From: Tumebacillus algifaecis
GTDB taxonomy: Bacteria > Bacillota > Bacilli > Tumebacillales > Tumebacillaceae
Reading direction: 5' to 3'
NCBI RefSeq assembly: GCF_002243515.1
Contig: NZ_CP022657.1
Coordinates: 4,155,001-4,219,000, forward strand
DNA: 64,000 nucleotides
Position numbers and translations under genes: made by a program
Part shown: positions 1,480 through 41,261 of the stretch, one piece after another
How positions within the stretch are numbered: position 1 is the first letter of the stretch
Layout: every line of letters begins with the position of its first letter
Notes under the pieces: generated by a model
The model's input: only the letters and a program-made list of their open reading frames with translations
The model's database searches: none
Told to the model about the DNA's origin: nothing

Positions 1480-2379
1480 CTACGCCTTCGCCGCATCTTT
1501 GTTCCGCGCCCGCATGCGCAGCTCAGACACGACGATGCCAAGCAAGATCATCACGATGCCAACCCATTGCACACCGACCACATGTTCGCGCAACAGGAAA
1601 AATGCGGCCACGACGGCCACCGGCAGCTCGATCGAGCCGAGCACCCCAGCGAGCGAACCGCCGACTTTGGGAATCCCGATGTTAAAGAACACCGGCGGAA
1701 TGACTTGACCCAGCGCCCCGATGATCAGCGCCCAGACCCACAAGCCGTCCCACAGCGTCCCATTCCATAAGAACGTCGGTGGGAACACGAAGAACACCGC
1801 CACCGTCGCTGCCACCGAGATGATCGCGCTGTTCACCCACGGAGATGTCCCGGGACGCACATAGCTTGTAAAATACAAGAACATGCTGTACGTCACCGAC
1901 GACAACAACCCGAGCAAAATACCGGACATCGACACCCCGCTCCACTCCGTATGCCACAGATCGACGGCGAATACCGTTCCGGCCAAAATCAGCACGATCG
2001 CCGCCCATTTCGCTCTGTTCGGCTTTTTCCGCGTCATCACAAAATCGATCAGCATCACAATCCAAGCAAACTGGAACAAAAGCACGATCGCAAGCGACGC
2101 TGGCAGATCGGACAATGACAAGTAATAAAACACGCTGGTACAGCTCGACAAAAGCCCGAGAAAACCAAACAAGAGCACATCTCGTAGCTTCAACTGCTTA
2201 ACATGTCGAAACTGAAACGCTGCGATCACAAGCAACAACGAAGCCGCCATAAAATACTGGGAAGAAGTCACATCTCCCGGCGTATATCCGGCTTCATACG
2301 CTTTCTTAACCACTGGCGAGATCAAGCCATAGCTCGCCCCGCCGATGAGCACAAACAAAATCGCCCACATACGACTCAT
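1480..2379 (-). CDS. EamA/DMT-family transporter
   Basis: This 299-residue integral membrane protein has about ten hydrophobic segments in two halves of roughly 140 residues, the duplicated EamA layout of the drug/metabolite transporter superfamily. The first helix runs from residue 5 (MWAILFVLIGGASYGLI), and the second repeat begins near residue 150 (GILLGLLSSVTYSMFLYF). The short basic tail RMRARNKDAAKA is probably cytoplasmic. Family members export amino acids, nucleobases or other small metabolites across the cytoplasmic membrane; the substrate cannot be read from sequence. It is monocistronic and ends at the shared terminator at 1413-1449. Confidence 0.9.
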   Translation of the reverse strand: MSRMWAILFVLIGGASYGLISPVVKKAYEAGYTPGDVTSSQYFMAASLLLVIAAFQFRHVKQLKLRDVLLFGFLGLLSSCTSVFYYLSLSDLPASLAIVLLFQFAWIVMLIDFVMTRKKPNRAKWAAIVLILAGTVFAVDLWHTEWSGVSMSGILLGLLSSVTYSMFLYFTSYVRPGTSPWVNSAIISVAATVAVFFVFPPTFLWNGTLWDGLWVWALIIGALGQVIPPVFFNIGIPKVGGSLAGVLGSIELPVAVVAAFFLLREHVVGVQWVGIVMILLGIVVSELRMRARNKDAAKA

Positions 2380-2550
2380 CCTACATCCTCCACCTTCTAC
2401 CCTCTCTCATTACTTCATAGACTATCGATCATACACCAAGCGGTTAACGTATGCACGACTTCACAGTATCATGATAAAATACCACAGAAAGACAAACAAA
2501 GACAACAACTGTTCTTAGGATGAAACATTTCCGCCTTCCACATCCCAGAC

Positions 2551-2587
2551 AAAAAAATACCCAGTCTCCCTGATAAGGAAACCGGGT
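2551..2587 (-). terminator. Terminator of the pgi/AlbA_2 operon
   Basis: On the minus strand an 11-bp stem (2577-2587 with 2559-2569, two G-U pairs, 7-nt loop) is followed by TATTTTTTT. It lies six bases beyond the stop of the AlbA_2-domain gene and is a clear intrinsic terminator. Confidence 0.9.
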
Positions 2588-2592
2588 TCTGC

Positions 2593-3507
2593 TCACAATA
2601 AGCCTAACGTCGCAGCCGTCCGTGGTCCGATGCGACGTTTGATGTACAACTCTGCGACCACATACGGGTCGTCTACCCACACTGACTGATTGTTCTGCTT
2701 CACCGCCACCCTCCGCCGTTGTTGCCCACCACCTATCGTCTCCAGCACCGAATACATCGTCGTGCCAACAGGAACGTACAAATGTACAATTTTCCGCCCG
2801 CTCACGGTGAGGATTCGCACTTCTGGAAAAGGGGATAACAACGGATAGATTCGCGCGTGCAAAAGCGAAGAGACGGCGAGCAGGTAACGATCTTCACTTC
2901 CGTAGCGAGAGATTTCATGGTTGATCCCGACCATTCTTTTGTCATCGCTGATCCCTAAAAACAGGTTGCCGTTGTTCGAGTTGGCGAAAGCGACGACCGA
3001 CTTGAGAATCTTCTCCTTCGAGTTCTGAAAATCGAGCTTAAACTCGATCTCCTGATTCTCCTCTCGTGCAATGGCGCGGAACACGTTGTCTTCCCGTCCG
3101 AGGTACAGATAGCGCGAGATCGCCCGCAGTCGATAGGTGTACGACTCAAACACGTCCTGATCGAGCACGATGTCTTCCAGTCGATAGCGCACTTCCTGCC
3201 ACAACTGATCGATGCTATCGTGAAAACAGATGTCAAACTGCACCTTGCGCCCGAGCGCATAGATGTCAAACCCCACCCCGCAACTGACTTCACTCGGCTG
3301 GTACTGGTCAGCACCTTCCACGGCGAACACGCCCGCTTGCACCATTGCATCAAAATAAAGGCGCGGCACGACCACTTTTTTGCGAATCCGCTCCTTGAAC
3401 ACTGCCAGCCCCTCGCGCTCGACCTCATGAAACAGACGCACCCGCACCGTATCCCGCTCCACCTGTTGTAGCACAGCGATAAACTGACAGCTGATCAGCC
3501 TGTTCAT
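2593..3507 (-). CDS. AlbA_2 (Schlafen-type) domain protein
   Basis: This encodes 304 residues. The C-terminal half (about 150-290) matches the AlbA_2 / divergent AAA_4 fold: the entry motif ENQEIEFKLDF, then AFANSNNGNLFLGISDD and a VHLYVPVG strand. Members bind nucleic acid or nucleotide and are often annotated as putative transcriptional regulators. The N-terminal ~145 residues form a separate mixed alpha/beta region that I do not recognise. The ATG overlaps the TGA of pgi (ATGA, 3504-3507), so translation is coupled to glucose-6-phosphate isomerase. The functional link to glycolysis is unknown. The domain call is fairly firm and the role is open. Confidence 0.8.
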   Translation of the reverse strand: MNRLISCQFIAVLQQVERDTVRVRLFHEVEREGLAVFKERIRKKVVVPRLYFDAMVQAGVFAVEGADQYQPSEVSCGVGFDIYALGRKVQFDICFHDSIDQLWQEVRYRLEDIVLDQDVFESYTYRLRAISRYLYLGREDNVFRAIAREENQEIEFKLDFQNSKEKILKSVVAFANSNNGNLFLGISDDKRMVGINHEISRYGSEDRYLLAVSSLLHARIYPLLSPFPEVRILTVSGRKIVHLYVPVGTTMYSVLETIGGGQQRRRVAVKQNNQSVWVDDPYVVAELYIKRRIGPRTAATLGLL

Positions 3508-28136: not shown

Positions 28137-31100
28137 ATGAGTGGAATTACCAAACTCAGTTTGAAACATACGGTCGCCGTCAGCATCCTCTGTGTGCTGA
28201 TTCTGATCGGCGGGCTGTTCTCGACCAGCCAAATCAAAATCGAAACCTTCCCCGACGTCACCTTCCCAGGCTTGCTCGTGCAAGCGATCTATCCTGGCGA
28301 AGCGGCGGCCGACGTGGAAAAGGAAATCACCAACCCGATCGAAAAGTCGCTCCTCGCCATGCAGGGGACCGACGGGATCACCTCCAATTCAGCCGAAAAC
28401 GCATCGACCATCTTTATCTCCTACCCGTTCGGTACCGATATGACCGACATGACGAGCAAGGTGGAAGAGGCGATCGCCAAAATCAAACTGCCCGATCGCG
28501 CGGATGTCAACGTCATCCGCATGTCGGGCAACTCGATGCCCGTCTACCAAGTGGCAGTCTCTGGCTCCAACGCGACCGAGCTGCAAAACTTGTTCGAAAA
28601 AAGCGTGATGCCCGAACTCAAACAGATCAATGGCGTTGCTAATGCCGCGCTCAAAGGCGCTCAGGTCACCGAACTGCAAGTGGTGGTTGACCAAGACAAA
28701 GCCCAAGCGCACGGCCTAACGCTTGCCGCTATCAAAGATGGGATCCAAGCCAAAGAGTACTCGCTCCCGCTCGGCAATGTAGAGAGCGCTGGCAACTCGA
28801 TCCCCGTGCGCCTGACTGGCGACCTCAACAGTGTCGATGAGTTAAAAAAACTCAAGCTCGCCGCAGGTCAATCTGCGTCCGTACCGCAAGGAATTCCCGG
28901 TCAAACACCGAATCTGCAGGGCGGTCAAGGACAAACTGCCGTGCAGACGGCGCCGGTACTACTACAAGATGTGGCCACCATCTCCGAAGTGACCACCCAA
29001 TCGGAAATCACGCGCTTCAACGGCCAGCCCTCGCTGACCATCGAAGTGCAAAAGACGCAAGACGCCAACACTGCCGAAGTGGTCACCAAAGTCAAAGATG
29101 TTCTGAGCAAATGGCAAGCGGAGAAAGATCTCACCTTCCATGTCATCTTTGACCAAGGGGCGGAAGTGGAAAAATCGGTCTCTGCGCTGATCCGTGAAGG
29201 TCTGCTCGGCGCCATGTTCACCGTCCTGATCATCTTGCTCTTCCTGCGCAGTGTGCGGGCGACACTGATCTCGATTCTGTCCCTGCCGCTGTCAATCATG
29301 GGTACGATCTTCGTGCTCAACCAGTTCGGCTACACGCTGAACATCATGACGCTCGGCGGTTTGGCTGTCGCGATCGGCCGCATCGTCGATGACTCGATCG
29401 TCGTCATCGAAAACATCTACCGCTGGCGTCAGGAAAAAGGCGACACGATGAGCGGCAAAGCGCTCGCTTACCACGCGACCAAAGAAGTAACTGGCGCCGT
29501 CGCTTCCTCGACGTTTGCCACGGTGGTCGTGTTCGCACCGCTCGCCTTGGTGTCTGGCATCATCGGCGAATTTTTCCGCCCGTTCGCCATCGCCGTCGTC
29601 ACCTCGATTCTCTTCTCGTTGCTCGTCTCGCTGGTCTTGATCCCAGTGCTCGGGAGCACGTTCTTCAAAAAGATCAAGCTGGAGCATAAAGAAGGCAAGA
29701 TCACGCAAGGGTTTGAAAAACTGCTTCGCGCTTCCCTGCGCAAAAAAGGTCTCGTCATCAGCCTGACCGTCGTTCTGCTGGTCGGCTCGCTGGCGATGAT
29801 TCCAGTGCTCGGCGTCTCCTTCCTGCCGCAAGGAGAAGGCAAGCAGATCCAAGCGACGATGAAGCTTCCGAACGGCACCTCGCTGGAACGCACCGATGAG
29901 GTCGCCAAGAAGGTCGAAGCTTACCTGAAAGACCAAAAAGGCATCGAGTACAGCCAAGTCTCGATCTCCTCAGGCACGTCGCTCAATCTCCACGAAATGG
30001 GCAGCACGCCGAACGAAGCAAACTTTACGATCCATCTGCAAGATGACGTGTCCTTGTCTGACATGATCGATACGACGAAAAAAGAGTTGACCGCACTGGT
30101 CCAAGAAGTTGAGAAAAACGCTGAAATCACCGTCAAGGAAAGCCAAGACCAAGGCGGCCCACCGTCTGGGAACAACATCAACATTCAACTGTATGGGCAA
30201 GACTTGACGGCGCTTGGCAAAGCGGCGACTCAAGTCGAAGAAGCGCTGAAACAAAACCCGGATTTGAAAGATGTCACCAACAACATGAACGAACAGCGCC
30301 CAAAATGGGGCATCACGTTGAACAAAGCGGGTGAAGACGCAGGAGTCAGCGGATATGTGCTGATGGCGGCCGTCTCCGAACAACTGCGCCCCGTCGCAGT
30401 CGGCAACTACGAATTGGGTGGCAAGACCTGGGAGGTCACCTTGAAATATTCGGAGGCGATCACGACCCAAGAGCAGTTGGCAGCCGTCAAACTGCCGACC
30501 GCAGCAGGTGTGAAAACGCTGGGCGAAATCGCCGACATCAAGGTCGAAGAAACTCCGGTCGCCATCCCGCATCAAGATGGCAAAGTGTATGCGAGCCTCA
30601 CCGCCAACATCAAAGGCTCCGACACAGCAAAAGTGACCAACGCTGTGTTGGCCGACCTCGACATGATGACCTTGCCGGATGGGGTCACCCATGAGACGGG
30701 TGGCGGACTGGAAATGATCACCGAAGGCTTTACCGATCTAGGCATGGCGATGGTTGCAGCCGTCTTCCTCGTCTTCCTGATCTTGAGCATCACCTTTGGC
30801 GGCTTGAAAACGCCGCTGGTCATTCTGTCCTCGCTCCTGTTCGTGCCAATCGGTGCCCTCGGTTCCCTGCTCATCACTGGCGAACCGCTGTCGATGAGCG
30901 GCATGATCGGTCTGCTCATGCTGATCGGGATCGTCGTCACCAACGCGGTCGTCCTGCTTGACCGCGTCGAGAAAAACCGTGATGCAGGCGTAGAAATGAC
31001 CGAAGCGGTCGTCGAAGCGGCCAAAACGCGCCTGCGTCCGATCGTGATGACGGCGCTGGCTACCATCTTCGCGCTGCTTCCGCTCAGCCTGTCGCAAGAA

Positions 31101-31241
31101 CAGGCGGGTCTGATCTCGAAAGGTCTGGCCCTCACCGTCATCGGTGGCTTGACCACCTCCACCTTCCTCACCCTGCTGTTCGTGCCTGTCCTGTACAGCA
31201 TGGTGACGAAAAAACGCAAACCGCGCATCGAAGAGTTTTAA
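28137..31241 (+). CDS. RND-family efflux permease (SwrC-like)
   Basis: This 1034-residue resistance-nodulation-division transporter has a first helix near 12-30, a large periplasm-type domain, helices 4-6 with the proton-relay region GGLAVAIGRIVDDSIVVIENIYR near 395, and the duplicated second half. It resembles Bacillus SwrC, which exports surfactin-type lipopeptides without an outer-membrane partner. No membrane fusion protein gene is adjacent. An ATG at 28137 was preferred to a TTG one codon earlier; AAAGGGGT sits about ten bases upstream. It lies ~70 bp after the two-component genes, which probably regulate it. Confidence 0.92.
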   Translation: MSGITKLSLKHTVAVSILCVLILIGGLFSTSQIKIETFPDVTFPGLLVQAIYPGEAAADVEKEITNPIEKSLLAMQGTDGITSNSAENASTIFISYPFGTDMTDMTSKVEEAIAKIKLPDRADVNVIRMSGNSMPVYQVAVSGSNATELQNLFEKSVMPELKQINGVANAALKGAQVTELQVVVDQDKAQAHGLTLAAIKDGIQAKEYSLPLGNVESAGNSIPVRLTGDLNSVDELKKLKLAAGQSASVPQGIPGQTPNLQGGQGQTAVQTAPVLLQDVATISEVTTQSEITRFNGQPSLTIEVQKTQDANTAEVVTKVKDVLSKWQAEKDLTFHVIFDQGAEVEKSVSALIREGLLGAMFTVLIILLFLRSVRATLISILSLPLSIMGTIFVLNQFGYTLNIMTLGGLAVAIGRIVDDSIVVIENIYRWRQEKGDTMSGKALAYHATKEVTGAVASSTFATVVVFAPLALVSGIIGEFFRPFAIAVVTSILFSLLVSLVLIPVLGSTFFKKIKLEHKEGKITQGFEKLLRASLRKKGLVISLTVVLLVGSLAMIPVLGVSFLPQGEGKQIQATMKLPNGTSLERTDEVAKKVEAYLKDQKGIEYSQVSISSGTSLNLHEMGSTPNEANFTIHLQDDVSLSDMIDTTKKELTALVQEVEKNAEITVKESQDQGGPPSGNNINIQLYGQDLTALGKAATQVEEALKQNPDLKDVTNNMNEQRPKWGITLNKAGEDAGVSGYVLMAAVSEQLRPVAVGNYELGGKTWEVTLKYSEAITTQEQLAAVKLPTAAGVKTLGEIADIKVEETPVAIPHQDGKVYASLTANIKGSDTAKVTNAVLADLDMMTLPDGVTHETGGGLEMITEGFTDLGMAMVAAVFLVFLILSITFGGLKTPLVILSSLLFVPIGALGSLLITGEPLSMSGMIGLLMLIGIVVTNAVVLLDRVEKNRDAGVEMTEAVVEAAKTRLRPIVMTALATIFALLPLSLSQEQAGLISKGLALTVIGGLTTSTFLTLLFVPVLYSMVTKKRKPRIEEF

Positions 31242-31262
31242 GCGACGATGTGCCACTCCCCG

Positions 31263-31302
31263 AGCTGTCAGTGGATCAACTTCCACTGACAGCTTTTTTT
31301 TG
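31263..31302 (+). terminator. Terminator of the RND pump gene
   Basis: A perfect 13-bp stem AGCTGTCAGTGGA/TCCACTGACAGCT (31263-31275, 31282-31294) is followed by eight T. Confidence 0.96.
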
Positions 31303-31355
31303 TGGGCTCATCTCGCGTCCTCCGCTGTGATTCGACCTGTTCTTTTTTACCAGTC

Positions 31356-31412
31356 TTGTTATAATGGTCTTAACTATCTTTTCTCTATCAATCAAATCTG
31401 ATTTTATGATAG
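31356..31412 (+). promoter_or_regulatory. Promoter and possible operator of the LysR gene
   Basis: A TTGTTATAAT extended -10 lies near 31356-31366. Downstream, CTATCA (31385-31390) and TGATAG (31407-31412) form an inverted repeat enclosing AATCAAATCTGATT. LysR regulators often bind such dyads in their own promoter region; which site they use here is an inference. Confidence 0.35.
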
Positions 31413-31450
31413 ATAAATATCAGCACACCTATAGAAGAGGAGGGGACGCG

Positions 31451-32341
31451 GTGACGCTGTTGCAATTTCAGGTGTTTGTGACGGTGATCGAATCGAAGAG
31501 CTTTACCAAAGCGAGCGAGCAGTTGGGGCTTTCGCAGTCGGCCGTTTCACAGACGATCTCTGCGTTGGAAGGAACGCTTGGCGTAATGTTGCTCAATCGG
31601 AGTCGCAGTGGGATCACACCGACCAAAATCGGAGAGCATATGTTGATGCATGTCCGGGAGATTTTACGTCGAACGATGTTAATTAAACAAGAAGCGGACG
31701 CCTTGCGGGGACTGGAGGTCGGGACACTGCGCATCGGGTCGATCCCTGGCATCGCGTCCAAGCTCCTGCCAAAGATCATCGGGACGTATGCAAGCCGTTT
31801 TCCGGGGATTGAACTGATCGTGTCGGAAGGCAGCCAAGAGGAGGTCACCAACTGGGTCTTCCATTCGGTCGTCGATTTGGGCCTGCTTCCACTGCCGATC
31901 GAAGGGGTGGGCAGCTTCCCTTTGATCCAAGACCACCTACAAGTGTTCCTGACACCACACCACCCTTTGCAACAGCAAGCGTCACTGAGCATCGAGCAGT
32001 TGGCAAACGAACCACTCATCCTCCCGAAGTACAGCTGTGTCGGGCAGGTTCGCGAACAGTTTGCGGCAGTCGGTCTGGTGCCACAGGTGTTGTTTGAAGT
32101 GCGTGATACGGCGACGATCCTCGCGATGGTACAAGAAGGCATCGGCGTGGCGGTGTTGCCCGAATTGAGCATTCCGACTAGTTTGCACCCAACGCCAGCT
32201 CTGCCGTTGCTGCCCGCTAGCCCACGTACGCTGGGGCTTGTCACGCGCTGTATTCAGACGGTGTCTCCTGCGGCTTCCAAGTTTGTCATCCATGCACAGG
32301 AGTACGTAAAGCAAGACTGTCCGCATCTACTTGCGGTGTAA
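31451..32341 (+). CDS. LysR-family transcriptional regulator
   Basis: This 296-residue regulator has an N-terminal winged HTH (about 1-60: FVTVIESKSFTKASEQLGLS, QSAVSQTISALE, LLNRSRSGI) and a periplasmic-binding-like effector domain from about 90 (GTLRIGSIPGIASKLLP). It starts at the GTG at 31451 after AGAGGAGGGG; the longer frame upstream lacks a ribosome site. The next gene, an MFS transporter, begins 20 bases after its stop in the same direction, so the two likely form an operon and the transporter may carry a compound related to the inducer. Confidence 0.92.
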   Translation: MTLLQFQVFVTVIESKSFTKASEQLGLSQSAVSQTISALEGTLGVMLLNRSRSGITPTKIGEHMLMHVREILRRTMLIKQEADALRGLEVGTLRIGSIPGIASKLLPKIIGTYASRFPGIELIVSEGSQEEVTNWVFHSVVDLGLLPLPIEGVGSFPLIQDHLQVFLTPHHPLQQQASLSIEQLANEPLILPKYSCVGQVREQFAAVGLVPQVLFEVRDTATILAMVQEGIGVAVLPELSIPTSLHPTPALPLLPASPRTLGLVTRCIQTVSPAASKFVIHAQEYVKQDCPHLLAV

Positions 32342-32361
32342 GATGAGTGGGGGAACGAAAG

Positions 32362-33549
32362 ATGAACACGAAAGGGGTACGCAACAATGTGTGGCTGATC
32401 TACGGCTACACGTTTGCGACCGGATTGTTTTTTGACCGCGCGCTGTGGGTCTTGTTTTTGGTGGAACGCGGAATGAATATGGCACAGGTCGGCTTGTTGG
32501 AATCGCTGTTGCACTTTGCGATCCTGTTTTTTGAAGTGCCGACCGGGATTGTTGCCGATCTATACGGGCGGCGAAAGAGCATGTTGATCGGAACGTTTAT
32601 TTCACTGTTCTACGCCCTGTTCATGATGATCTCGGGCAATTTCTTCACCTTCACGCTCGCCTTCTCCCTGATGGGACTCGCGATCACGTTCAAGTCGGGC
32701 GCTTCACAGGCTCTGCTCTATGAAACGTTGCAGGCGGGCGGCAAGGAAAGCAGTTATACGAAGATCACGGGCAATGAGACCGCCTTGTTTCTGCTTTCGC
32801 TGTCGATCGCACAATGGACGGGCGGATTGATGGCCGGGCTGAGCTGGAATTTGGTCTATTCCTCGATCATCGTCGCACAACTGCTCGCGATGGTGGTGGT
32901 CTGGTTTGTCAAAGAACCGGAGCGGGTAGCCGTGCCGGAGGAGAAAAAGACTACCTTGCAATTGTGGAAGGGGCAGTTTGTGGACACGCTCTCGATCTGG
33001 AAAAAGGAGCCTTCCCTGCACCGTCCGGTCATACTGTTCATCTCGGTGGTGACGGTCATGACGGTCGTGATCTTCTACGCGCAAGAGTATTTGAAACGGC
33101 AAGGCTTTTCGACAGGCGAGATCGGATTTATTTTCATGGCCGAATCACTGCTCGGTGCGGCGGCGGCCAAACTGGCGCATCGCGTCGAGGAAAAGATTCA
33201 ATTTTCCAAGCTGTTTCAAGTGATCTATTTTGGGTTTTTGCTATTTTTGATCATCTTTGCTGTCGTCAACGGTTGGGTGTCCGTGCTGCTGCTGTACGCG
33301 ATGGGGATGCTGAGCACCGGACTGGAGCCGATCTTCAACAATTTTGTGCAGGCCAAATTGACCGCCCAAGTGCGGGCGACCTTCTTCTCGCTGATCTCGC
33401 TTTTGACTTCGTTTGGGATCATGCTGATCTTTCCGCTCTTCGGAGCGGTCGTTGATAGTATCGGGTTTGTGTACTCGTTTATCGGCCTCGCCGTTTTGTT
33501 GGTCTTGATGCGAGTTGTACTGATGAACAGGGGACCGCGCGCTGCGTAA
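32362..33549 (+). CDS. MFS transporter
   Basis: This 395-residue transporter has twelve predicted helices. The conserved loop between helices 2 and 3 reads VADLYGRRKSMLIG, as in drug-efflux MFS proteins. The start at 32362 follows GGGGGAACGAA. It is expressed behind the LysR regulator and ends at a GC-rich hairpin. The substrate is unknown; a drug or metabolite exporter is likely from the family. Confidence 0.9.
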   Translation: MNTKGVRNNVWLIYGYTFATGLFFDRALWVLFLVERGMNMAQVGLLESLLHFAILFFEVPTGIVADLYGRRKSMLIGTFISLFYALFMMISGNFFTFTLAFSLMGLAITFKSGASQALLYETLQAGGKESSYTKITGNETALFLLSLSIAQWTGGLMAGLSWNLVYSSIIVAQLLAMVVVWFVKEPERVAVPEEKKTTLQLWKGQFVDTLSIWKKEPSLHRPVILFISVVTVMTVVIFYAQEYLKRQGFSTGEIGFIFMAESLLGAAAAKLAHRVEEKIQFSKLFQVIYFGFLLFLIIFAVVNGWVSVLLLYAMGMLSTGLEPIFNNFVQAKLTAQVRATFFSLISLLTSFGIMLIFPLFGAVVDSIGFVYSFIGLAVLLVLMRVVLMNRGPRAA

Positions 33550-33573
33550 CGGGCAGCGCGTTGCTTTTTGCAA

Positions 33574-33618
33574 GCGACAGGCGACAGGCAGCGCGCACGC
33601 CTGTCGCTTTTGTTTTTT
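33574..33618 (+). terminator. Terminator of the LysR/MFS unit
   Basis: Stem GCGACAGGCG/CGCCTGTCGC (33574-33583, 33598-33607) is followed by TTTTGTTTTTT. A second hairpin, CGCGCTGC/GCAGCGCG, lies just upstream around the MFS stop. Confidence 0.9.
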
Positions 33619-33706
33619 CTATCACCTAGGCACCAACATGCCTGATACAGCCACCTTTCGTGTTACACTGATGGGACAGATTATTTTTGGTTAATGAGGT
33701 GAACCG

Positions 33707-34279
33707 ATGGCACGTGAAAGAAAGTTCACGACAGATCAATTATTTCAGGAAGTGAAACAGCTCCTGCTACAACACAAATATGAAGGATTCCATTTTGGAT
33801 TGCTGGCCGAGCGCCTCGAAGTCTCGCGTGGCACCCTTTACAAATACTATGAGAACAAGGAAGAGCTGATCTCCGATTTCATGATTTATGAGATGGAGTT
33901 GATGCTCGGTGAAATCAAGCTGATCGAAAACCACACCGGATTTACTGCACAATTCGATTACTTGATGCAGGTGATTTTCCGACATAGCATGATTCATCAA
34001 ATTCTCGGGATGATCCATCAACTTCCGGTCAGTTCCAATCCGAAAGTGATCGCCAACAAAAAAAAGATGGACGAGTCCCATCTCAGCCTCTATCAACTCT
34101 TGCAACGCTTTATCGACTTAGGCCGCCAAGAAAAAATCCTCAAGGACGATCTGCCTGACGGACTCTTGTTGGGGATCATTTTTCAAACGATCAATCTCCC
34201 CAATCATTTTGGGATCGCACAGGACGAGTGGCTGCGCTCCATCAAGGAGATTTTGCGTCACGGAATGTTCACAAAATGA
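33707..34279 (+). CDS. TetR/AcrR-family repressor
   Basis: This 190-residue regulator has an N-terminal HTH (about 9-55: TTDQLFQEVKQLLLQHKYEG, then LLAERLEVSRGTLYKYYENK) and a helical ligand-binding domain with no recognisable effector signature. The ATG follows GAGGTGA. Immediately downstream lie two identical-arm 14-bp palindromes flanking a promoter for the MMPL transporter gene. This makes it very likely that the protein represses that pump and is released by its substrate. Confidence 0.93.
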   Translation: MARERKFTTDQLFQEVKQLLLQHKYEGFHFGLLAERLEVSRGTLYKYYENKEELISDFMIYEMELMLGEIKLIENHTGFTAQFDYLMQVIFRHSMIHQILGMIHQLPVSSNPKVIANKKKMDESHLSLYQLLQRFIDLGRQEKILKDDLPDGLLLGIIFQTINLPNHFGIAQDEWLRSIKEILRHGMFTK

Positions 34280-34282
34280 TAA

Positions 34283-34331
34283 TTGACACTTGTGTCACCT
34301 AAGGAAGATAATAAGGGTGACACCAGTGTCA
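34283..34331 (+). promoter_or_regulatory. MMPL promoter with two TetR operators
   Basis: TGACAC-TT-GTGTCA (34284-34297) and TGACAC-CA-GTGTCA (34318-34331) are palindromes with identical 6-bp arms and centres 34 bp apart. The first overlaps a perfect -35 TTGACA (34283-34288). The -10 GATAAT (34307-34312) lies between them at 18-bp spacing, and the second covers the start region. This is the textbook layout for repression by the adjacent TetR protein. Confidence 0.88.
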
Positions 34332-34400
34332 TTTTTGTATGGAGTGAGTATTGAGGGCCCTCGATTGCAACTCTGGTTCAAAATGAGAGGCGGATATCAA

Positions 34401-36500
34401 ATGAAAAACGTATTGCGCAAAGTGACCGATTTTACTGCAACAAAAAAAGGGATGTGGATCACACTCAGTCTCTGGTTCGTGATGACGATGTTGCTGGCTC
34501 TGTTTGCGCCAGGAGCCAAGGAGTACGAAGTTTCCAGCATTGATTCGTTACCGCAAGATGCCCAATCGGTCATCGCCCAAATGAAAGTCGATCAGAATTT
34601 TGAAGGTACGGAAGATGTGCCTGCCTTACTCGTGTTTCAGTCCAACGCAGGCGAGCTGAAAGCGGACGAACTGTCTGCCCTGCTGAACGAGATACGCGGT
34701 GCCTCGATCGTCGGACTAAAGGAAGTGCTGTCCATTGATGGATTACCGCCCCAAGCGGTCGCCAGCTTTTTCTCAGATGACAAGACGACAGCTGTCATCC
34801 CCGTCCGTTTCGATTCTGGACTGGAAAGCAAGCAATTGGACGAAAAGCTGACCCAAATCAAAGACATCGCCGATCAGTCCTCGTCGCTGGCGATGTATGT
34901 CACGGGTCCTGCTGGCATTGCTGTCGATTCGTTAAACCTCTTCTCCCGAGCGGATGTCGTATTGCTGTTGTCTACCGTCGGCCTGATCCTGATCTTGTTG
35001 ATCGTGATCTACCGTTCGCCACTGCTGGCCTTGATCCCACTGCTTGCGGCGGCCTTTGTCTATGAAGTGGTCAATCAGTTGTTAGGGCTGTTTGGGAAAG
35101 CCGGACTGGAACTGAGCAAGCAGTCCTTGTCGATCATGTCCATCCTGCTATTTGCGGCGATTATCGACTATTCACTCTTTGTATTTTCCCGATTCCGTGA
35201 AGAATTGAAACAGCATGAGAACAAGTTCGATGCGATGAAATGGGCGATGCGCGAAACGGGGCTTCCGGTCTTTTTCTCCGGCGGTACCGTCTTGGTGGCG
35301 ATGCTCCTCTTGTTTTTTGCAGAGTATGGAGATTATCGCAACTTCGCCCCGATTTTCGGTACGACGATGTTCGTAATTATGCTGGCCTCGGTGACTTTGG
35401 TGCCTGCCTTATTCACACTGTTTGGCCGTAAGTCGTTCTGGCCGAAAATCCCGAGAGTCGGCGACCAACAGATTTCCCCGAACTCCGTCTGGTCAAAAGT
35501 GGGGCGCATGGTCACAAAGAAACCGATCATCTCCGCACTGTCCATTCTGATTCTGCTGGTCCTTTCGGCCAGCAATCTGTTCAATCTGTCGTATGAATTC
35601 GATACGATCAAATCATTCCCGAACGACATGCCCTCGCGCGTCGGCTATGAAATTCTGGAAGACAAGTTTGAAAAGGGCGATCTGGCCCCAACCACCGTCC
35701 TGTTCGAATCTGAGCGCGCCCTGTCCCAAGCCGAGCAAGAGAGTTTGCGCGACACGCTTTCCGCACAGCCCTTGGTCAACAACGTTCGGTTGAGCGAGCT
35801 GTCTCCGAATGAAAAAGTGGTCCGCTACAGTCTGACCTTCACCGAAAGCCCTTATGCGATCGAATCGATGGACGCGCTTGAAAACATGCGTGAGGAGTCG
35901 GGCGCACTGGTCCAAGCGAGCGGACTGGAAGGAACGCTCTATTTTGCCGGAGAGACGGCGACAAAAGTGGATGATCGGGCGGTCAACAACCGCGACCTGT
36001 TGGTGATGGTTCTGCTTGAGTCCATCCTGATCTTCCTGTTGCTGATCGCGATGACTCGTTCGGTGAAAATGCCGATTTATATGATCGGTACGATCTTGCT
36101 GTCCTTCCTGTCTGCCGTCGGGCTTGGACTTTTCCTGACCGACCTTCTATTTGACATCGAAGCGGTCAGCAACCGAGTTCCGCTGTACACGTTCGTGTTC
36201 CTGGTCGCGCTCGGGATCGACTACAACATCATCCTGATCTCCAGATTCATGGAGGAGCGGCGAAAACATCCGGTCAAAAAAGCGGTCGAACTTGCGGTCG
36301 CCTCGACGGGCGGTGTGATCTCATCGGCAGGTTTCCTGCTGGCTGCGACGTTTGCTGTGCTGATGACCCAGCCGATTCAAGTCTTGTTCGTGTTTGGATT
36401 TATCGTGGCGATCGGCATTCTGCTCGATACCTTCCTGATCCGCGGAATCCTGTTGCCAGCCTTGATCGTCATGTTTGAGAAAGACAAACCGGCGCGCTAA
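34401..36500 (+). CDS. MMPL-type RND transporter (YdfJ-like)
   Basis: This 699-residue membrane protein has two MMPL halves. Each has one N-terminal helix, an extracytoplasmic domain and five clustered helices; the proton-relay residues fall in FAAIIDYSLFVFSRFREE near 270 and VALGIDYNIILISRFMEE near 610. MMPL pumps of Firmicutes export lipids, drugs or solvents. The start at 34401 (MKNVLRKV) follows GAGGCGG; an in-frame ATG at 34383 is the alternative. It is controlled by the operator pair just upstream. Confidence 0.92.
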   Translation: MKNVLRKVTDFTATKKGMWITLSLWFVMTMLLALFAPGAKEYEVSSIDSLPQDAQSVIAQMKVDQNFEGTEDVPALLVFQSNAGELKADELSALLNEIRGASIVGLKEVLSIDGLPPQAVASFFSDDKTTAVIPVRFDSGLESKQLDEKLTQIKDIADQSSSLAMYVTGPAGIAVDSLNLFSRADVVLLLSTVGLILILLIVIYRSPLLALIPLLAAAFVYEVVNQLLGLFGKAGLELSKQSLSIMSILLFAAIIDYSLFVFSRFREELKQHENKFDAMKWAMRETGLPVFFSGGTVLVAMLLLFFAEYGDYRNFAPIFGTTMFVIMLASVTLVPALFTLFGRKSFWPKIPRVGDQQISPNSVWSKVGRMVTKKPIISALSILILLVLSASNLFNLSYEFDTIKSFPNDMPSRVGYEILEDKFEKGDLAPTTVLFESERALSQAEQESLRDTLSAQPLVNNVRLSELSPNEKVVRYSLTFTESPYAIESMDALENMREESGALVQASGLEGTLYFAGETATKVDDRAVNNRDLLVMVLLESILIFLLLIAMTRSVKMPIYMIGTILLSFLSAVGLGLFLTDLLFDIEAVSNRVPLYTFVFLVALGIDYNIILISRFMEERRKHPVKKAVELAVASTGGVISSAGFLLAATFAVLMTQPIQVLFVFGFIVAIGILLDTFLIRGILLPALIVMFEKDKPAR

Positions 36501-36541
36501 GCGCAGGAGCGGTTCTCCGCGCCAAATGAAACGCAGTCGAA

Positions 36542-36574
36542 AAAAGGGAAGCCCGTGACAGGCTTCCCTTTTCT
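36542..36574. terminator. Bidirectional terminator
   Basis: Stem AAAAGGGAAGCC/GGCTTCCCTTTT (36542-36553, 36561-36572) with a 7-nt loop is flanked by A and T tracts. It ends the MMPL gene and abuts the converging methyltransferase stop. Confidence 0.93.
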
Positions 36575-37176
36575 TATTGCTTTTGCGCCAAAAGCTGGAT
36601 CACGTGGGACAGACCTTGGTGACCCGTCCCTTCCTCGCGAACCACTTCGCCCATGAAAAAGTGGACAATCTTCCAATCGGCAAACGCTTGCAACAGATCC
36701 TCCGCTTGGTACAGCAACGCCTCATCTTTCGGTCCACCGCTCTTGTAGGGCAGTTGATACTTCGAATAGACTTCGGTCAGATAGTACCCGCCCGGTTTGA
36801 CCGCCGTTTTCACGCCTTGCAAGGTGCGATTCCGCAATGCTTCCGGGAAATGACCAAAGATGCAGACGATGCCGTCCCACTGTGCGGGCTGCCAAACGGC
36901 GTTGCTGAGATCGACCCATTCGGTCGCGACCGCAACGTTGCGCTCGGCGGCGAGCTGTTTCGTTTTTTGAAGGCCCGATTCCGCCAAGTCCCAAGTGGTG
37001 ACGCGATGCCCTTGCTCAGCGAGGAAGACGGCGTTGCGCCCCTCGCCTTCCGCGATGGCCAGCCACTTGCCCTCCGCTGGTAGTCGATGGGCGATCGAGG
37101 CCAGAAAAGCGTTGGGCTCTTTGCCAAACACATAATCGGCGGTGTTGAAGCGCTCATGCCAGTGGTTGTTCATCAT
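36574..37176 (-). CDS. Class I SAM-dependent methyltransferase (TehB-like)
   Basis: This 200-residue protein has motif I degenerate as LAIAEGEGRNAVFLAEQG near residue 35, then the acidic end of strand 2 in VTTWDLAESGLQ and the loop IVCIFGHFP. This E-G-E-G form of motif I is typical of TehB/thiopurine-type methyltransferases. The start is ATGATG at 37171-37176 after AAAGGAGG. The target is unknown; family members methylate small electrophiles, tellurite or thiols. The longer frame upstream is not supported. Confidence 0.88.
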   Translation of the reverse strand: MMNNHWHERFNTADYVFGKEPNAFLASIAHRLPAEGKWLAIAEGEGRNAVFLAEQGHRVTTWDLAESGLQKTKQLAAERNVAVATEWVDLSNAVWQPAQWDGIVCIFGHFPEALRNRTLQGVKTAVKPGGYYLTEVYSKYQLPYKSGGPKDEALLYQAEDLLQAFADWKIVHFFMGEVVREEGTGHQGLSHVIQLLAQKQ

Positions 37177-37510
37177 TCGTTTCCTCCTTTGACTCGACCA
37201 GATCGTAGACGGCGACGTCCGGCAGGCACTGGATGCACCCATGGTGGTACAACGACTACAGGGCCCACCTCTCCCCAAATAGAGAAAAACGCTACGCTGT
37301 GTTTCCAGCCTAGCTTATTTTTGACAACCATACAATCTTGGATGCGGTGGCATCACATTGGCCATCATCGGCAGTGCTGCTCGGGACGGGCAGTTTGCTC
37401 TTGGCTTTATTCAATTGCTCCAAGCTGTATTAACCTGCGTGGGGTTGCCTCCTAACGGTTTTCAAAACCGCCCCGTATTGCTTCGTACCAGTCTATGATC
37501 TATTTGAGCT
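37177..37510. other. Gene-poor stretch with possible coding remnants
   Basis: No full gene is visible. On the minus strand 37154-37252 could encode a 32-residue peptide from a TTG (MYHHGCIQCLPDVAVYDLVE, then SKEETNDEQPLA), overlapping the methyltransferase start; it has a CxxC pair but a poor ribosome site. On the plus strand about 37333-37498 keeps an open frame with a hydrophobic middle (LGCGGITLAIIGSAARDGQF) but has no start codon, as in a decayed membrane protein gene. Confidence 0.25.
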
Positions 37511-37762
37511 CTACCACTTTTTTCTTACAATTGGTAGTAAGCTAGTGACTACTAATAAGATCAAAGTATAAGCGCCATAATTGTGATAGGTACCTGTCCT
37601 AACATCTGAGGTTAAAGTGCATGAAAATAGAGACAGCTGCATACTTACTGTCTGCCCCTCGCTGCCGGTCCATAGCGAATGTATGACTTCCACTTGCTCA
37701 AAAAAGAGGAAAAACAAACCAATCGTTACTAATGCTAAAAGGAAATTGATATATCGCAACAT
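37511..37762 (-). CDS. Small two-helix membrane protein
   Basis: This 83-residue protein is hydrophobic at both ends (about 4-22 and 66-80) with a polar Ser/Thr-rich loop between and a basic C terminus (RKKW), suggesting two transmembrane helices. The ATG follows AGAGGGGGTATAAAT, a good site. It lies 44 bp behind the XRE regulator gene and is probably co-transcribed. I do not recognise the family. Proteins of this shape beside XRE regulators can be immunity or accessory proteins, but nothing here proves that. Confidence 0.65.
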   Translation of the reverse strand: MLRYINFLLALVTIGLFFLFFEQVEVIHSLWTGSEGQTVSMQLSLFSCTLTSDVRTGTYHNYGAYTLILLVVTSLLPIVRKKW

Positions 37763-37806
37763 ATTTATACCCCCTCTGTAGAATGAAAGTAAGAATGCGC
37801 GATGAT

Positions 37807-38067
37807 CTACAGATCACCGCGCTTTTGTTGCAGAGCCATCTTGTATTTACTTGAATTCTCCAGCTCGAAGTTGACCTCTTTTACAAGATATTCAAGTGGA
37901 ACTTCGAGCCGCGCTGCGAGTGCAACCAAGATTTTGTATGACGGACGAGCTCGATCAGATTCGATCTGGGACACCATTGACGGAGTGCAAAGACCTTTCG
38001 CCAGTTCGATTTGCGTGAGACCTGTTTTCAAACGTATTTCCCTAATTCGTTGCCCAAGAGAATGCAT
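37807..38067 (-). CDS. XRE-family HTH regulator
   Basis: This 86-residue protein is almost entirely an HTH_3 domain (about 2-58): LGQRIREIRLKTGLTQIELA, then TPSMVSQIESDRARPSYKIL and LAARLEVPLEYLV. A short polar tail follows. The ATG at 38067 after GGAGGTGGG was chosen over 38082. There is no ligand domain, so it is probably a dimeric repressor or activator of local genes. It lies downstream of the peptide/TPR-regulator pair, separated by a terminator and a perfect palindrome that could be its operator. Confidence 0.9.
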   Translation of the reverse strand: MHSLGQRIREIRLKTGLTQIELAKGLCTPSMVSQIESDRARPSYKILVALAARLEVPLEYLVKEVNFELENSSKYKMALQQKRGDL

Positions 38068-38105
38068 AACACCCACCTCCAAGATGTGTTCGTCCTATCA
38101 AAACA

Positions 38106-38138
38106 ATAAACCACCTCGTAAAATCTGAGGTGGTTTAT
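38106..38138. terminator. Terminator upstream of the XRE gene
   Basis: A perfect 12-bp stem ATAAACCACCTC/GAGGTGGTTTAT with a 9-nt loop is followed on the minus strand by TGTTTTG. It probably ends the TPR-regulator/peptide transcript. Its strength in either direction is moderate because the T run is interrupted. Confidence 0.65.
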
Positions 38139-38167
38139 CGTTCAAATTTTTGGTCGTCTTTTAATCG

Positions 38168-38198
38168 GTGACAATTGTCACTTCAGATGAGTGACAAT
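38168..38198. promoter_or_regulatory. Candidate operator, GTGACAATTGTCAC plus half site
   Basis: A perfect 14-bp palindrome GTGACAATTGTCAC (38168-38181) is followed 23 bp later by the half site GTGACAAT (38191-38198). Another GTGACAAT lies at 39989-39996, at the end of the MFS gene of the same island. HTH regulators of the XRE type bind such dyads; either neighbouring regulator may use it. Confidence 0.45.
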
Positions 38199-38237
38199 AA
38201 AAGGCCCCTCATAATGAATGTACGAGGGACGAAAGAA

Positions 38238-38372
38238 TTAATACACTGGAAGATAAACGATTCCTGGCGGTTGTGGGGGTTTCGTTTCAGCGGTTATGTT
38301 CATTTTTGTTGAACCGAAAACGAAGGTTGCAACTAGGATTAATCCTACTCCCAAAAGCATTTTTCTTTTCAT
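38238..38372 (-). CDS. 44-residue exported peptide, candidate pheromone precursor
   Basis: The ATG overlaps the TGA of the TPR regulator (TGATG) and follows GAGAGGGG. The product starts MKRKMLLGVGLILVATFVFG, a Sec signal sequence, continues STKMNITAETK and ends PPQPPGIVYLPVY. This fits RRNPP systems (PapR, NprX, Phr), where a short exported propeptide encoded just behind the regulator is trimmed to a C-terminal 5-10-mer, taken up by Opp, and bound by the TPR domain. The Pro-rich, aromatic tail would be the signal. No comparable sequence comes to mind, so the pheromone type may be new. It is easily missed by gene finders. Confidence 0.75.
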   Translation of the reverse strand: MKRKMLLGVGLILVATFVFGSTKMNITAETKPPQPPGIVYLPVY

Positions 38373-39553
38373 CAGAATCCCCTCTCATTCATAAATTCAC
38401 TCTTCGTATTTGAAAATATGCGACTTCTTTCATAGTAACTCATGGCTGTTTCTGCGTCATTCTTCAAAAAATAAAATTCCATGAGGCACTTACAAGCATA
38501 GAAACGTACCGAACGAGAAAATTCATCACTTCTGCTTACGCTGGCTGCGTACGAAGGATCGTCTTTCGCGACCGTATACATGATCTGTAGTTTGCCCCAG
38601 TATTCTGGATACTGCTTGGTCAAACTAGCGTATTCTTCGATCAATTGGATAGCTGTGGTGTAATCTTTAAGTTGAATTAGAGACTTCACGTATTCCTTGA
38701 TGATTAAAGCCAAAGTGTCCTCAAAAGACTCTGCAAAATGCATTGCTTCAGAAAGCAATTTAGCAGATTCCGTATAGTTCCTTATTATATATTCGTAATG
38801 CGCGGCATTTAGAAGAGCAATCGCAATTTGCTCATTGCTATCGATCTGTTTAAAAAACTCTAAGGACTTGTAAGCATGTTCCATTGCTTTTTGAATGTTA
38901 CCTCGGTCCTCTTGCATGATCATTCTTGTGTATTGTGCCATAGCAAGTGTTTCAGCATCATCTACAAAAACAGTTTCGACCATTTGAAGTAACTCATGAC
39001 AACTGCTGTATTCCTTAAAAATGGTATAACATAACATAAGACTGGCTGTTACTAGATGAAGTAGCCTTTTTTCTTTATATTGTTCGTTCAGTTTCTTGGC
39101 GTAATCCATCGCACTAGTCCAAACATTGTAAGCCTTCTCGTATTCGCCTTGCGAATAATAGATTCTACCAAGGTTATTCAGACTGAAACCTCGTTCAGTT
39201 GAGCCTAAAGCCATCTCGACCAACTCTTCAGCGAATGCAGTATTACGAATATACATGGGCTTTGTTCGATTATCCGAGTTAAAGAACGCTTCTAGTTCTT
39301 GTTGTTGTTTATAAGTATCCATTTGTTTTAGACGAGCCACTGAGACCCCTAACCCATTTGCAATTTCCTCGACTTCAGAAGGAGAAACGGGTCGTTCAGC
39401 AACAAGAATCAAACGTAACGTCTCACGACTCATATGTAGCCGAGAGGAAAAACCACGTATGGTTTCCCCTTTTTCGTACATGATCTCTATAATTCTCCGA
39501 AGCAGATTGACATTTTCCATTTCGGAAACCATTTTATGTTCAGACGTGCTCAC
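38372..39553 (-). CDS. HTH-TPR regulator, RRNPP-like
   Basis: This 393-residue protein has an N-terminal HTH (about 14-72: LLRRIIEIMYEKGETIRGFS, then RLHMSRETLRLILV) and a helical C-terminal domain made of tetratricopeptide-type repeats (about 105-385; for example FSLNNLGRIYYSQGEYEKAY). This is the architecture of RRNPP peptide-responsive regulators such as PlcR, NprR and AimR. The start is the GTG at 39553 after GGAGGGG. Its stop overlaps the start of a 44-aa exported peptide, its probable ligand source. Upstream lies an AT-rich control region with GTAAT/ATTAC arms at 39596-39607. Target genes are unknown; the exporter upstream and XRE gene downstream are candidates. Confidence 0.85.
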   Translation of the reverse strand: MSTSEHKMVSEMENVNLLRRIIEIMYEKGETIRGFSSRLHMSRETLRLILVAERPVSPSEVEEIANGLGVSVARLKQMDTYKQQQELEAFFNSDNRTKPMYIRNTAFAEELVEMALGSTERGFSLNNLGRIYYSQGEYEKAYNVWTSAMDYAKKLNEQYKEKRLLHLVTASLMLCYTIFKEYSSCHELLQMVETVFVDDAETLAMAQYTRMIMQEDRGNIQKAMEHAYKSLEFFKQIDSNEQIAIALLNAAHYEYIIRNYTESAKLLSEAMHFAESFEDTLALIIKEYVKSLIQLKDYTTAIQLIEEYASLTKQYPEYWGKLQIMYTVAKDDPSYAASVSRSDEFSRSVRFYACKCLMEFYFLKNDAETAMSYYERSRIFSNTKSEFMNERGF

Positions 39554-39786
39554 CTATATCCCCTCCGTGAACAATATATGTCATTTTGTAAACAAGTAAT
39601 CAATTACCAATATTTTTAATTATAACTACGAAGTAGAAATTAGTCTATCAATTGTAACATTTGTTTGAATATACTACCTATTATTTTGTTACGATCAAAA
39701 ACGACATTTCATTAAATTTTTATTTACTCCCCAAACCTTTCTCCATGCTTATCGAGACTAGTTAAGTAAGTCACGCACTTCAAAAT

Positions 39787-39905
39787 AAAAAGCCGTTGCT
39801 AACGCAACCGCATCAAATTGCAGACAAATGCCCTTCTTGCCAGAAAACAAGAAGGGCATTTCAGCGTGTAGTCAAAGTACCTTTCTGTACGAGGTCTACA
39901 CGCTG
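39787..39905. repeat. Three consecutive hairpins between MFS and TPR-regulator genes
   Basis: In order: a stem near 39790-39810 followed on the minus strand by TTTTTATTTT (terminator-like); a perfect 14-bp stem AAATGCCCTTCTTG/CAAGAAGGGCATTT (39826-39839, 39848-39861); and a 10-bp inverted repeat CAGCGTGTAG/CTACACGCTG (39862-39871, 39896-39905). The middle hairpin recurs in weaker form at 49274-49311. The rest of 39554-39995 holds no gene, only the regulator's upstream region. Confidence 0.6.
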
Positions 39906-39995
39906 AGACCACCACAATAAAATTGCGATAGCTTTCTAGAACTTAGTTGATACGAGTTGAGTGTCATGCAATTATGTCAAAACTCCAAGTGACAA

Positions 39996-41261
39996 TCAAA
40001 GCCCCTTGAGATCCTTTTTCGCAAGTAGAATCCCTTGTGCTTTAGAGGATGACATCCCGTTCACCTGTTTGCGTTTGACCATGACATACCCGAGGATCAA
40101 CAAACTGCTGAGGGCAAGCCCGTTTAAGATCGTTTGAATGCCAAACCAGTCGGTCATCACTCCAACCGGGAAGGACGCCATTTGCGCCGCTGATACTACA
40201 GCACTTTGCACCCCCATCACTTTCCCCATATGCTGGTCGGGAGTGGTCGTTTGTAGCGCATTGCTGATGACAATCCCGCCAATCGAAGCCACCGCACCAC
40301 GAATGGCGAGCGCGATGCAATCGATCCATAAGTAGGGCGAGGCGGCGATCGCCCATGTGGTCAGACATAAGGCCAGCGTATTGAAGATCAAGGTCGCGAG
40401 AACATTTTGTTTGAAATACTTTTCGAATGTCCCACATAGCACCGAACCGATCACATATCCAATTCCCAATGAGGAGTTCAACCAGCCAGCAGTTTCCACA
40501 CCAAGGTGGAGCAGTTTGTCAGAGATTGATGGAAACAGATAGTCGATCCGGCCCAAAGCGATAAACAGGAAGTTGAGAATGACCATCGTCAGGAGCACCC
40601 GATGCAGCCGGAATGCTTCACCCGCATTTTTTAGTTCGGAAAACAAAGTAGGTTGGACACTGACGTTCTGGATTTTGTCTGGAATCTTCATCTGCCAGAT
40701 CGCATAGAGGATGGCCGAAAAGCTCAAGAAGTTTAGATAGAACACCATTTTGTATCCAAACAGCGCAACCAAAGTCGATCCGATCACCGGACCTGCAAAC
40801 ATCGCCAATTGAAAAGTCGCGTTGTAAACCGACAATGCTTTCGACAACTGCTCAGGCGGAACGATGTTTGGAACGATCGAACGGCGAGCTGGAAGATCAA
40901 GACCGATCAATAATCCATATAAAAAATTGATGGTGTAGTACAGGTAGAGATCCATCACGTTCATCGTGATGAACACGGCGAGCAGCAAGGTCAAAAACGC
41001 TTGCATCCCCTGCGTGAAAAACAGCAACTTGCGTCGGTTAAACCGATCGGCAAGGATACCGCCTAACAACATGAACAGAATGTTCGGCACCGCTTGCACA
41101 AAAATGAGCATGGAAACGTCGGTCGCTGATTCATTGAAGGAGAAAACATACCATTGTTCTGCGTACAACTGCGCCCACGTGCCAAGGTTGGAAACGATCA
41201 AACCAAGCCAAAGCAGTCGAAAATCACGAATCTTCAAGACGGAAAACATATTGGATGCCAT
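39996..41261 (-). CDS. MFS exporter (MefA/EntS-like)
   Basis: This 421-residue transporter has about twelve helices and belongs to the MFS_3 group: FSVLKIRDFRLLWLGLIVSN at the N terminus, GGILADRFNRRKLLFFTQGM in the helix 2-3 loop, and DLPARRSIVPNIVPPEQLSK after helix 4. The ATG follows GAGGTG, which is formed by the last codons of the 71-aa gene four bases upstream, so the two are coupled. Export of a small molecule or peptide is expected from the family. The neighbouring TPR regulator and peptide gene suggest density-dependent control. Confidence 0.9.
   Translation of the reverse strand: MASNMFSVLKIRDFRLLWLGLIVSNLGTWAQLYAEQWYVFSFNESATDVSMLIFVQAVPNILFMLLGGILADRFNRRKLLFFTQGMQAFLTLLLAVFITMNVMDLYLYYTINFLYGLLIGLDLPARRSIVPNIVPPEQLSKALSVYNATFQLAMFAGPVIGSTLVALFGYKMVFYLNFLSFSAILYAIWQMKIPDKIQNVSVQPTLFSELKNAGEAFRLHRVLLTMVILNFLFIALGRIDYLFPSISDKLLHLGVETAGWLNSSLGIGYVIGSVLCGTFEKYFKQNVLATLIFNTLALCLTTWAIAASPYLWIDCIALAIRGAVASIGGIVISNALQTTTPDQHMGKVMGVQSAVVSAAQMASFPVGVMTDWFGIQTILNGLALSSLLILGYVMVKRKQVNGMSSSKAQGILLAKKDLKGL

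Follow-up and report, generated by a model that had tools for sequence, protein, structure and literature searches.

A predicted TPR receptor and propeptide gene pair in Tumebacillus algifaecis and its relatives, with a candidate operator and a second regulator nearby

The gene pair and its surroundings

The 64-kb stretch of Tumebacillus algifaecis DNA analysed here, which we call the window, carries two genes, R1 and P, on its minus strand, an orientation left unstated in the initial annotation. Their reading frames and translations bear out the initial annotation, which described an HTH-TPR gene overlapping a 44-codon gene with its own ribosome site. The R1 stop and the P start share one base (TGATG), and GAGAGGGG lies within the 3′ end of R1, immediately 5′ of the ATG of P. 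Around the pair we distinguish the following features.

38372 to 39553, minus strand: R1, HTH-TPR regulator and presumed pheromone receptor (open reading frame of 393 aa, GTG start)
38238 to 38372, minus strand: P, predicted exported propeptide (open reading frame of 44 aa, ATG start)
38256 to 38291, minus strand: core of P, A28-V39 (AETKPPQPPGIV), which is likely to be the pheromone or its central part (from an alignment of 60 peptides)
38204 to 38230, minus strand: terminator-like hairpin of the intrinsic type directly 3′ of P (from position and fold)
38176 to 38196, unstranded: dyad TGTCA-N11-TGACA in the P-R2 interval, presumed to be an operator (pattern match)
38103 to 38142, minus strand: strong hairpin followed by TTTATTGTTTTGATA, directly 5′ of R2 (from fold and related loci)
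37807 to 38067, minus strand: remnant of a second regulator, R2, with the HTH domain and without the TPR part (start at ATG 38067 or possibly at TTG 38082)
37797 to 37822, minus strand: terminator-like hairpin where the R2 remnant ends (terminator search)
39975 to 39994, unstranded: second dyad, TGTCA-N10-TGACA, 441 nt 5′ of the R1 start and just behind an MFS gene

In Pfam, R1 matches TPR models and, weakly at its N-terminus, HTH_31, and an AF2 model, for which the input was the window R1 and L007 alone, is an all-helical TPR superhelix (pLDDT 80.5, pTM 0.64). With the fold matches described below, these give R1 the N-terminal HTH and C-terminal TPR domains that characterize RRNPPA receptors. 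No family in an NCBIfam search of R1 reached its cut-off, and P, whose 44-aa translation is MKRKMLLGVGLILVATFVFGSTKMNITAETKPPQPPGIVYLPVY, gave zero Pfam matches. The initial annotation credited P with a Sec signal; a charged start and a hydrophobic stretch are indeed present, and since export was judged from charge and hydrophobicity, the label should be read on that basis. The hairpin directly 3′ of P is the probable end of the R1-P transcript. Promoter and terminator counts at the locus were near chance and not above it, and an Rfam search of positions 37000-40500 at gathering score matched no RNA element. The host genome, a single 4.5-Mb contig, contains six SBP_bac_5 genes of the peptide-uptake type.

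The R1 family, its peptide genes and the region downstream

R1 has matches in 10 of 101 genomes, seven of which belong to the same bacterial family and hold several to many copies each; the other three yield weak partial TPR or HTH matches. A profile search of 398 genomes of the class, taking at most the best four candidates per genome, returned strong matches in the same seven only and weak partial matches in six further genomes. The nearest relative with a name, and the only such one found, is from Tumebacillus flagellatus (52% identity). Up to 18 candidates were scored in most of the seven genomes, and the set we compared comprises at least 73 distinct R1 genes, each encoding at least 330 aa, identical proteins and four loci that are duplicates or partial outsiders (L007, L014, L016 and L022) having been set aside; its four lowest members are distant, scoring 22-38 bits against the window R1. 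We also looked for R1 on phages and plasmids: none of 50,697 phage records matched R1, the three plasmid matches were all cyanobacterial TPR proteins, and none of 110 pattern matches in viral contigs was confirmed.

Behind homologous regulators, where the initial annotation suggested looking for it, the small reading frame recurs. An open reading frame with a charged start and a hydrophobic stretch starts no more than 30 nt from the R1 stop in 58 of the 73 genes (57 having a PxxP-like motif in the same count), as against 2 of 86 other open reading frames of at least 200 aa at the same loci. Three further peptides were added by eye, namely those of L047 (slightly below the hydrophobicity cut-off), L065 (with a more distant start) and L054 (a propeptide of 104 aa with about five core copies), so that the adjoining gene for a small, predictedly exported propeptide expected of RRNPPA systems accompanies 61 of the 73. 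Its start is most often offset from the R1 stop by -1 (28 loci), 0 (11), +1 (7) or -4 (5), with a Shine-Dalgarno-like sequence within 18 nt of the start at 60 of the 61 loci. The peptide gene is under constraint: its pN/pS across seven close pairs is 0.35, falling to 0.22 within the core.

The remaining 12 R1 genes, in which we detected no peptide, are those of L028 (at a contig edge) and L048 (5′ of another R1), L068_5098, and nine genes in tandem arrays. The nine form one clade, found in three genomes of the window's genus; relatives without a downstream peptide gene, which the initial annotation held would count against a signalling pair, thus exist as a single tandem clade, set against the 61 of 73 genes that have the peptide. 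These arrays (L066, L069 and L072, in all three genus genomes) consist of R1 copies with R2 last, and their R1 proteins end in a conserved RRFPYDKFL-like tail that replaces the EEGF-like end, where the ribosome site of P is located.

At the orthologous locus of another genome (G002) the pair is followed by a 427-aa protein with HTH_3 and TPR domains, R2, which has no significant pairwise match to R1 (best E 0.30). Our survey covered mostly about 1.45 kb downstream of each locus (L039 ends at the contig end), and within it R2 lies no more than 700 nt from the R1 stop at 38 of 61 loci, in 36 of these 155-222 nt past the P stop. The remnant in the window, where aligned (37831-38067), matches the N-terminus of the G002 protein with 76% identity across 79 residues and has a pN/pS of 0.25; no further R2 fragments were found in 30001-39000. 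The R2 superfamily is wider, occurring in 33 of 200 genomes of the class at E ≤ 1e-15.

Directly 5′ of R2, a hairpin with a TTTATTGTGTTTATA-like tail is seen as a pattern in 23 of 61 entries, some of them folding poorly. The stems of this hairpin vary with pairing kept (CCACCTC/GAGGTGG, CCATCCC/GGGATGG, CCAACGC/GCGTTGG) and the tails are similar; the element at 38103-38142 may be an attenuator, a second terminator or a DNA site. At some loci the R2 stop is overlapped by a further gene, X (L074, 5774-6160, plus strand; copies at G000:C1:1296617, 3801309 and 468646), which encodes a protein of 126-135 aa with the sequence MKVKLMTPYERHNWECYSRTK... and without a Pfam match. Gene X is present in 4 of 41 genomes searched, strongly in one genus only, and could be an output gene.

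Between P and R2, past the terminator-like hairpin, sits the sequence TGTCA-N9-11-TGACA, which in the window overlaps a second palindrome, TGACAATTGTCA. Neither this dyad nor R2 featured in the initial annotation. An exact dyad occurs within 260 nt 3′ of the P stop at 21 of 61 loci, as against 0.1% of shuffled sequences, the dyad having first been spotted by eye in the same loci used for this count; at L034 it lies 3′ of a second peptide gene, which brings the total to 22. In 20 of these 22 loci it is 164-191 nt past the R1 stop, and it is absent from the other 39. The host genome has 20 exact dyads and 3 sites of the reversed pattern, and four of the 20 are at the host's three R1-P loci.

Which of the two regulators would own this site can be approached through its distribution. 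When the loci are split, after the data had been seen, into a close clade (34 loci whose R1 reaches at least 270 bits in comparison with that of the window) and the rest, the dyad is present in 22 of the 34 close loci and in none of the 27 distant ones (p 5e-8 for this post hoc split). The dyad thus tracks the R1 clade, even though 13 of the 27 distant loci have an R2; three close loci without a near R2 keep it, and the same dyad is shared by very different R2 proteins, whose identities to a single reference are about 30% and about 60%. These observations sit poorly with a reading that we consider rather unlikely, in which R1 and P are a receptor and its pheromone but the dyad belongs to R2 as part of its own promoter and R1 acts elsewhere, a reading suggested by the HTH of R2, by the location of the dyad 5′ of R2, and by the presence of the dyad within the close clade at 19 of 25 loci with R2 versus 3 of 9 without (p 0.04).

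The peptide core and its likely receptor

An alignment of 60 peptides over 12 residues, from which L068_5287 was left out and in which about 20 peptides were placed by eye, reveals a core that corresponds to A28-V39 of P, its first part, A28-P35, being an 8-mer of the form AxxxPxxP. The core opens with A in 58 peptides and with S in the other 2. At position 3, T is present in 29 and W in 12; Pro occupies position 5 in 49 peptides, position 6 in 42 and position 8 in 55; and I stands at position 11 in 31. Core residues 1-8 have a mean pairwise identity of 0.47, compared with 0.21 for signal residues 2-20, 0.13 for the eight residues preceding the core, 0.18 for core residues 9-12 and 0.09, the lowest value, for the last four residues of the peptide.

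The initial annotation placed the pheromone in the last 5-10 residues of P, a proposal that survives in part but not as written. Because conservation is lowest at the extreme C-terminus of the peptide, the likelier signal is AETKPPQP(PGIV); that is, the sequences suggest that the window pheromone is likely AETKPPQP or AETKPPQPPGIV and not simply PPGIVYLPVY. That the extreme C-terminus is nonetheless the pheromone, as in many Phr and AimP peptides, we regard as improbable: it is the usual rule in known systems (PMC10075063, PMC7425212), and certain peptides of the present family do stop shortly past the core (for example that of L064, AQDLPLDPVGIH), but the unit that is repeated in tandem propeptides is the core. 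Seven propeptides contain 2-5 cores (L033, L045, L050, L051, L052, L054 and L062). The second propeptide gene at L034, between P and R2, reads as holding four more tandem pheromone copies.

Divergence of the core follows divergence of R1. Core distance correlates with the distance between R1 TPR regions (r 0.49) and less with that between R1 HTH regions (0.32); with the HTH removed the correlation with the TPR region is 0.42 (p 0.001 in 999 permutations), and that with the HTH, the TPR region removed, is -0.16. Signal-sequence distance, taken as a control, also tracks the R1 TPR region (r 0.31, partial 0.26), so common descent accounts for part of the core correlation. At the 33 loci where R2 has at least 340 residues, core distance correlates with the TPR region of R1 (r 0.61) and not with that of R2 (0.05); R1 is therefore likely the receptor of the P-derived peptide, as judged from these comparisons. 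The same value of 0.05 led us to reject R2 as the pheromone receptor at R1-P loci.

The first (A) helices of TPRs line the concave face of the superhelix. We simulated peptide traits on the R1 tree and took family-wise p values, and two of seven peptide features passed, an aromatic residue at position 3 (p 0.01) and Pro at position 5 (p 0.02); the features that failed were W (0.07) and T (0.47) at position 3, an acid at positions 7 (0.08) and 2 (0.19), and P at position 6 (0.76). R1 columns linked to peptide positions 3 and 5 (p<0.01) fall in TPR A-helices in 13 of 20 cases, where 31% are expected (p 0.001), but no such enrichment is seen among columns linked to positions 2, 6 and 7 (5 of 17). 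Covariation at the latter three positions yielded nothing firm. Co-variation of the peptide with TPR residues, a check the initial annotation had proposed, is consequently borne out by distances, as would be expected from peptide-TPR co-evolution in an RRNPPA system, and is mixed at the level of sites. Together with the gene layout, the co-variation of the peptide with the R1 TPR region supports the original view of an RRNPP-type receptor and propeptide pair. Pro-rich exported peptides may also have other roles, and since the support for P as a signal is sequence-based one might suppose that P is an exported or membrane peptide with a different job (antimicrobial, immunity or membrane sensor) that R1 regulates. 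This we judge quite improbable given that the core co-varies with the TPR region of R1 and not R2, that pheromone-like units are repeated in tandem, that the overlap with R1 is constant and that the length of P and its spacing fit the RRNPP rules (PMC10075063).

Relation to known systems and a proposed mechanism

In a Foldseek search of the PDB with the R1 model the top match is Rap3T with its pheromone, and RapJ-CSF, PlcR-PapR7 (match 38) and NprR are also in the list, amid many eukaryotic and designed TPR proteins. The latter fit the model equally well as, or better than, RRNPPA proteins, with fold Z scores of about 22-23 for LGN/Pins, 20.6 for RapI and 19.0 for NprR, and matches in BFVD are to generic TPR-type and other viral proteins. 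Within the RRNPPA group, the best PDB kin of a sequence profile of 28 R1 proteins are the receptors of the Rap-Phr and NprR-NprX systems: RapJ at 6.5e-9, NprR, more weakly, at 1e-5 and Rap3T at 3.6e-5. AimR is not among the matches listed (the best 60 for the profile and the best 50 and best 50 for the fold). Sequence and model thus place R1 with the TPR receptors, its subfamily not being proven.

NprR and Rap are both assigned to clan B (PMC12700828), and tandem pheromone copies are also known in NprR and Rap systems (PMC9765709, PMC11343458), but R1 is only about 12-15% identical to Rap and NprR in the fold alignments and the P peptide is different. The cores AENLPINPF and AQDLPPLP are loosely like ADLPFEF of PapR7, a likeness seen by eye; PlcR, for its part, is described as a five-TPR receptor (PMC12700828). 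AloR-AloP of Paenibacillaceae likewise has many paralogues, a peptide immediately 3′, orphans and lineage-specific expansion (PMC7425212), but the AxxxPxxP core is not SHGRGG-like. The arbitrium system AimR-AimP-AimX has the same order of receptor, peptide, inverted-repeat operator and target, and in its operator, which lies 3′ of aimP, a 25-bp spacer separates two 6-bp boxes (PMC6458997). R1-P differs from that description in being a chromosomal multi-copy family, in having half-sites 9-11 bp apart and not 25 at the loci examined, and in having a gene for a further HTH-TPR regulator downstream as its presumed target.

The published rules for RRNPP systems are a receptor of 250-500 aa with HTH and TPR domains, a propeptide of 10-100 aa and a spacing of -60 to +400 bp (PMC10075063), and R1-P fits the receptor size, propeptide size and spacing of RRNPPA pairs (Rap, Rgg, NprR, PlcR, PrgX, AimR), although R1 has no close relative outside one bacterial family in the genomes searched. 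The pair itself is of a known kind. The suggestion in the initial annotation that it may be a new signalling type is too strong, as the layout was already known and the 21 novel candidate subfamilies reported with RRNPP_detector (PMC10075063) may include it. Indeed, R1-P pairs may already be in the tables of that study because Alicyclobacillaceae, the NCBI family of Tumebacillus, is named there among the hosts of candidate systems. Text searches of the literature on RRNPP systems, Tumebacillus and Alicyclobacillaceae found no account of the R1 family or of R1-P-R2 among the papers listed, and for tandem receptors and operators no R1-P-R2 cassette is among the matches listed (best 12 of 477). 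What may be new is the conserved internal Pro core, the lineage-wide expansion, the dyad and the second regulator.

We propose that R1 and P would form a self-contained peptide-signalling unit of the RRNPPA type. Translation of P would be coupled to that of R1, and the product would be exported via its hydrophobic N-terminus and trimmed extracellularly to a short, Pro-rich fragment around AETKPPQP(PGIV), which an oligopeptide permease would re-import and which would then dock against the concave side of the superhelix formed by the R1 TPRs. The HTH of R1 would bind TGTCA-N10/11-TGACA 3′ of P, as well as the upstream copy in the window, and the peptide would alter this binding in one direction or the other. 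The ancestral target of the downstream dyad would be R2, which in the host has lost its TPR part and kept its HTH. We think it quite likely that R1-P is an RRNPPA-type unit whose processed peptide is read by R1 and acts on the dyad and R2. The layout, the constraint on P, the core and its co-variation with R1, the position of the dyad and the neighbouring R2 can be read from the sequences themselves, and it is probable from them that cells signal by peptide through R1-P pairs and control the neighbouring second regulator.

A more far-reaching reading, to which we are drawn only tentatively, is that R1, P, the dyad and R2 make up a bacterial relay resembling arbitrium, in which R1 switches an exchangeable R2 without its own peptide and the internal AxxxPxxP pheromones are a new class. 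On this reading it is conceivable, though we would not yet favour it, that R1 switches R2 either when free or when bound to pheromone, with gene X coupled at several loci of one genus. Similarly speculative is the idea that AxxxPxxP signals, present in as many as five copies in one propeptide, might have diversified into numerous private channels, and we are equally hesitant about the R2 superfamily perhaps holding other receptors with different pheromones of their own. If the proposed scheme is true, one small bacterial family holds at least 60 receptor-pheromone pairs of the same kind, with the signal core, a candidate DNA site and a conserved downstream regulator all visible in sequence. 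Sequence could then address how a receptor and its pheromone shift specificity jointly while remaining a pair and what number of private channels one cell can accommodate, and the step from R1 to R2 would be an arbitrium-style switch outside phages with a receptor-class protein as its output.

Elsewhere in the host genome, an HTH-TPR gene of the R2 superfamily (L118, C1:3196000-3201500, open reading frame 2166-3449, plus strand) overlaps a propeptide gene in which AFINGGEPLSPKF, a different type of pheromone, is repeated almost perfectly in five tandem copies. Six more HTH-TPR genes (L104, L109, L110, L116, L119 and L121) each overlap or adjoin an exported peptide of their own, with motifs among these peptides that include SITTPIxD (twice), IDPPIGPLVISNR and SETPGPGPLGVSILK; with these six, the host genome therefore appears to hold at least 10 receptor-peptide pairs of several families.
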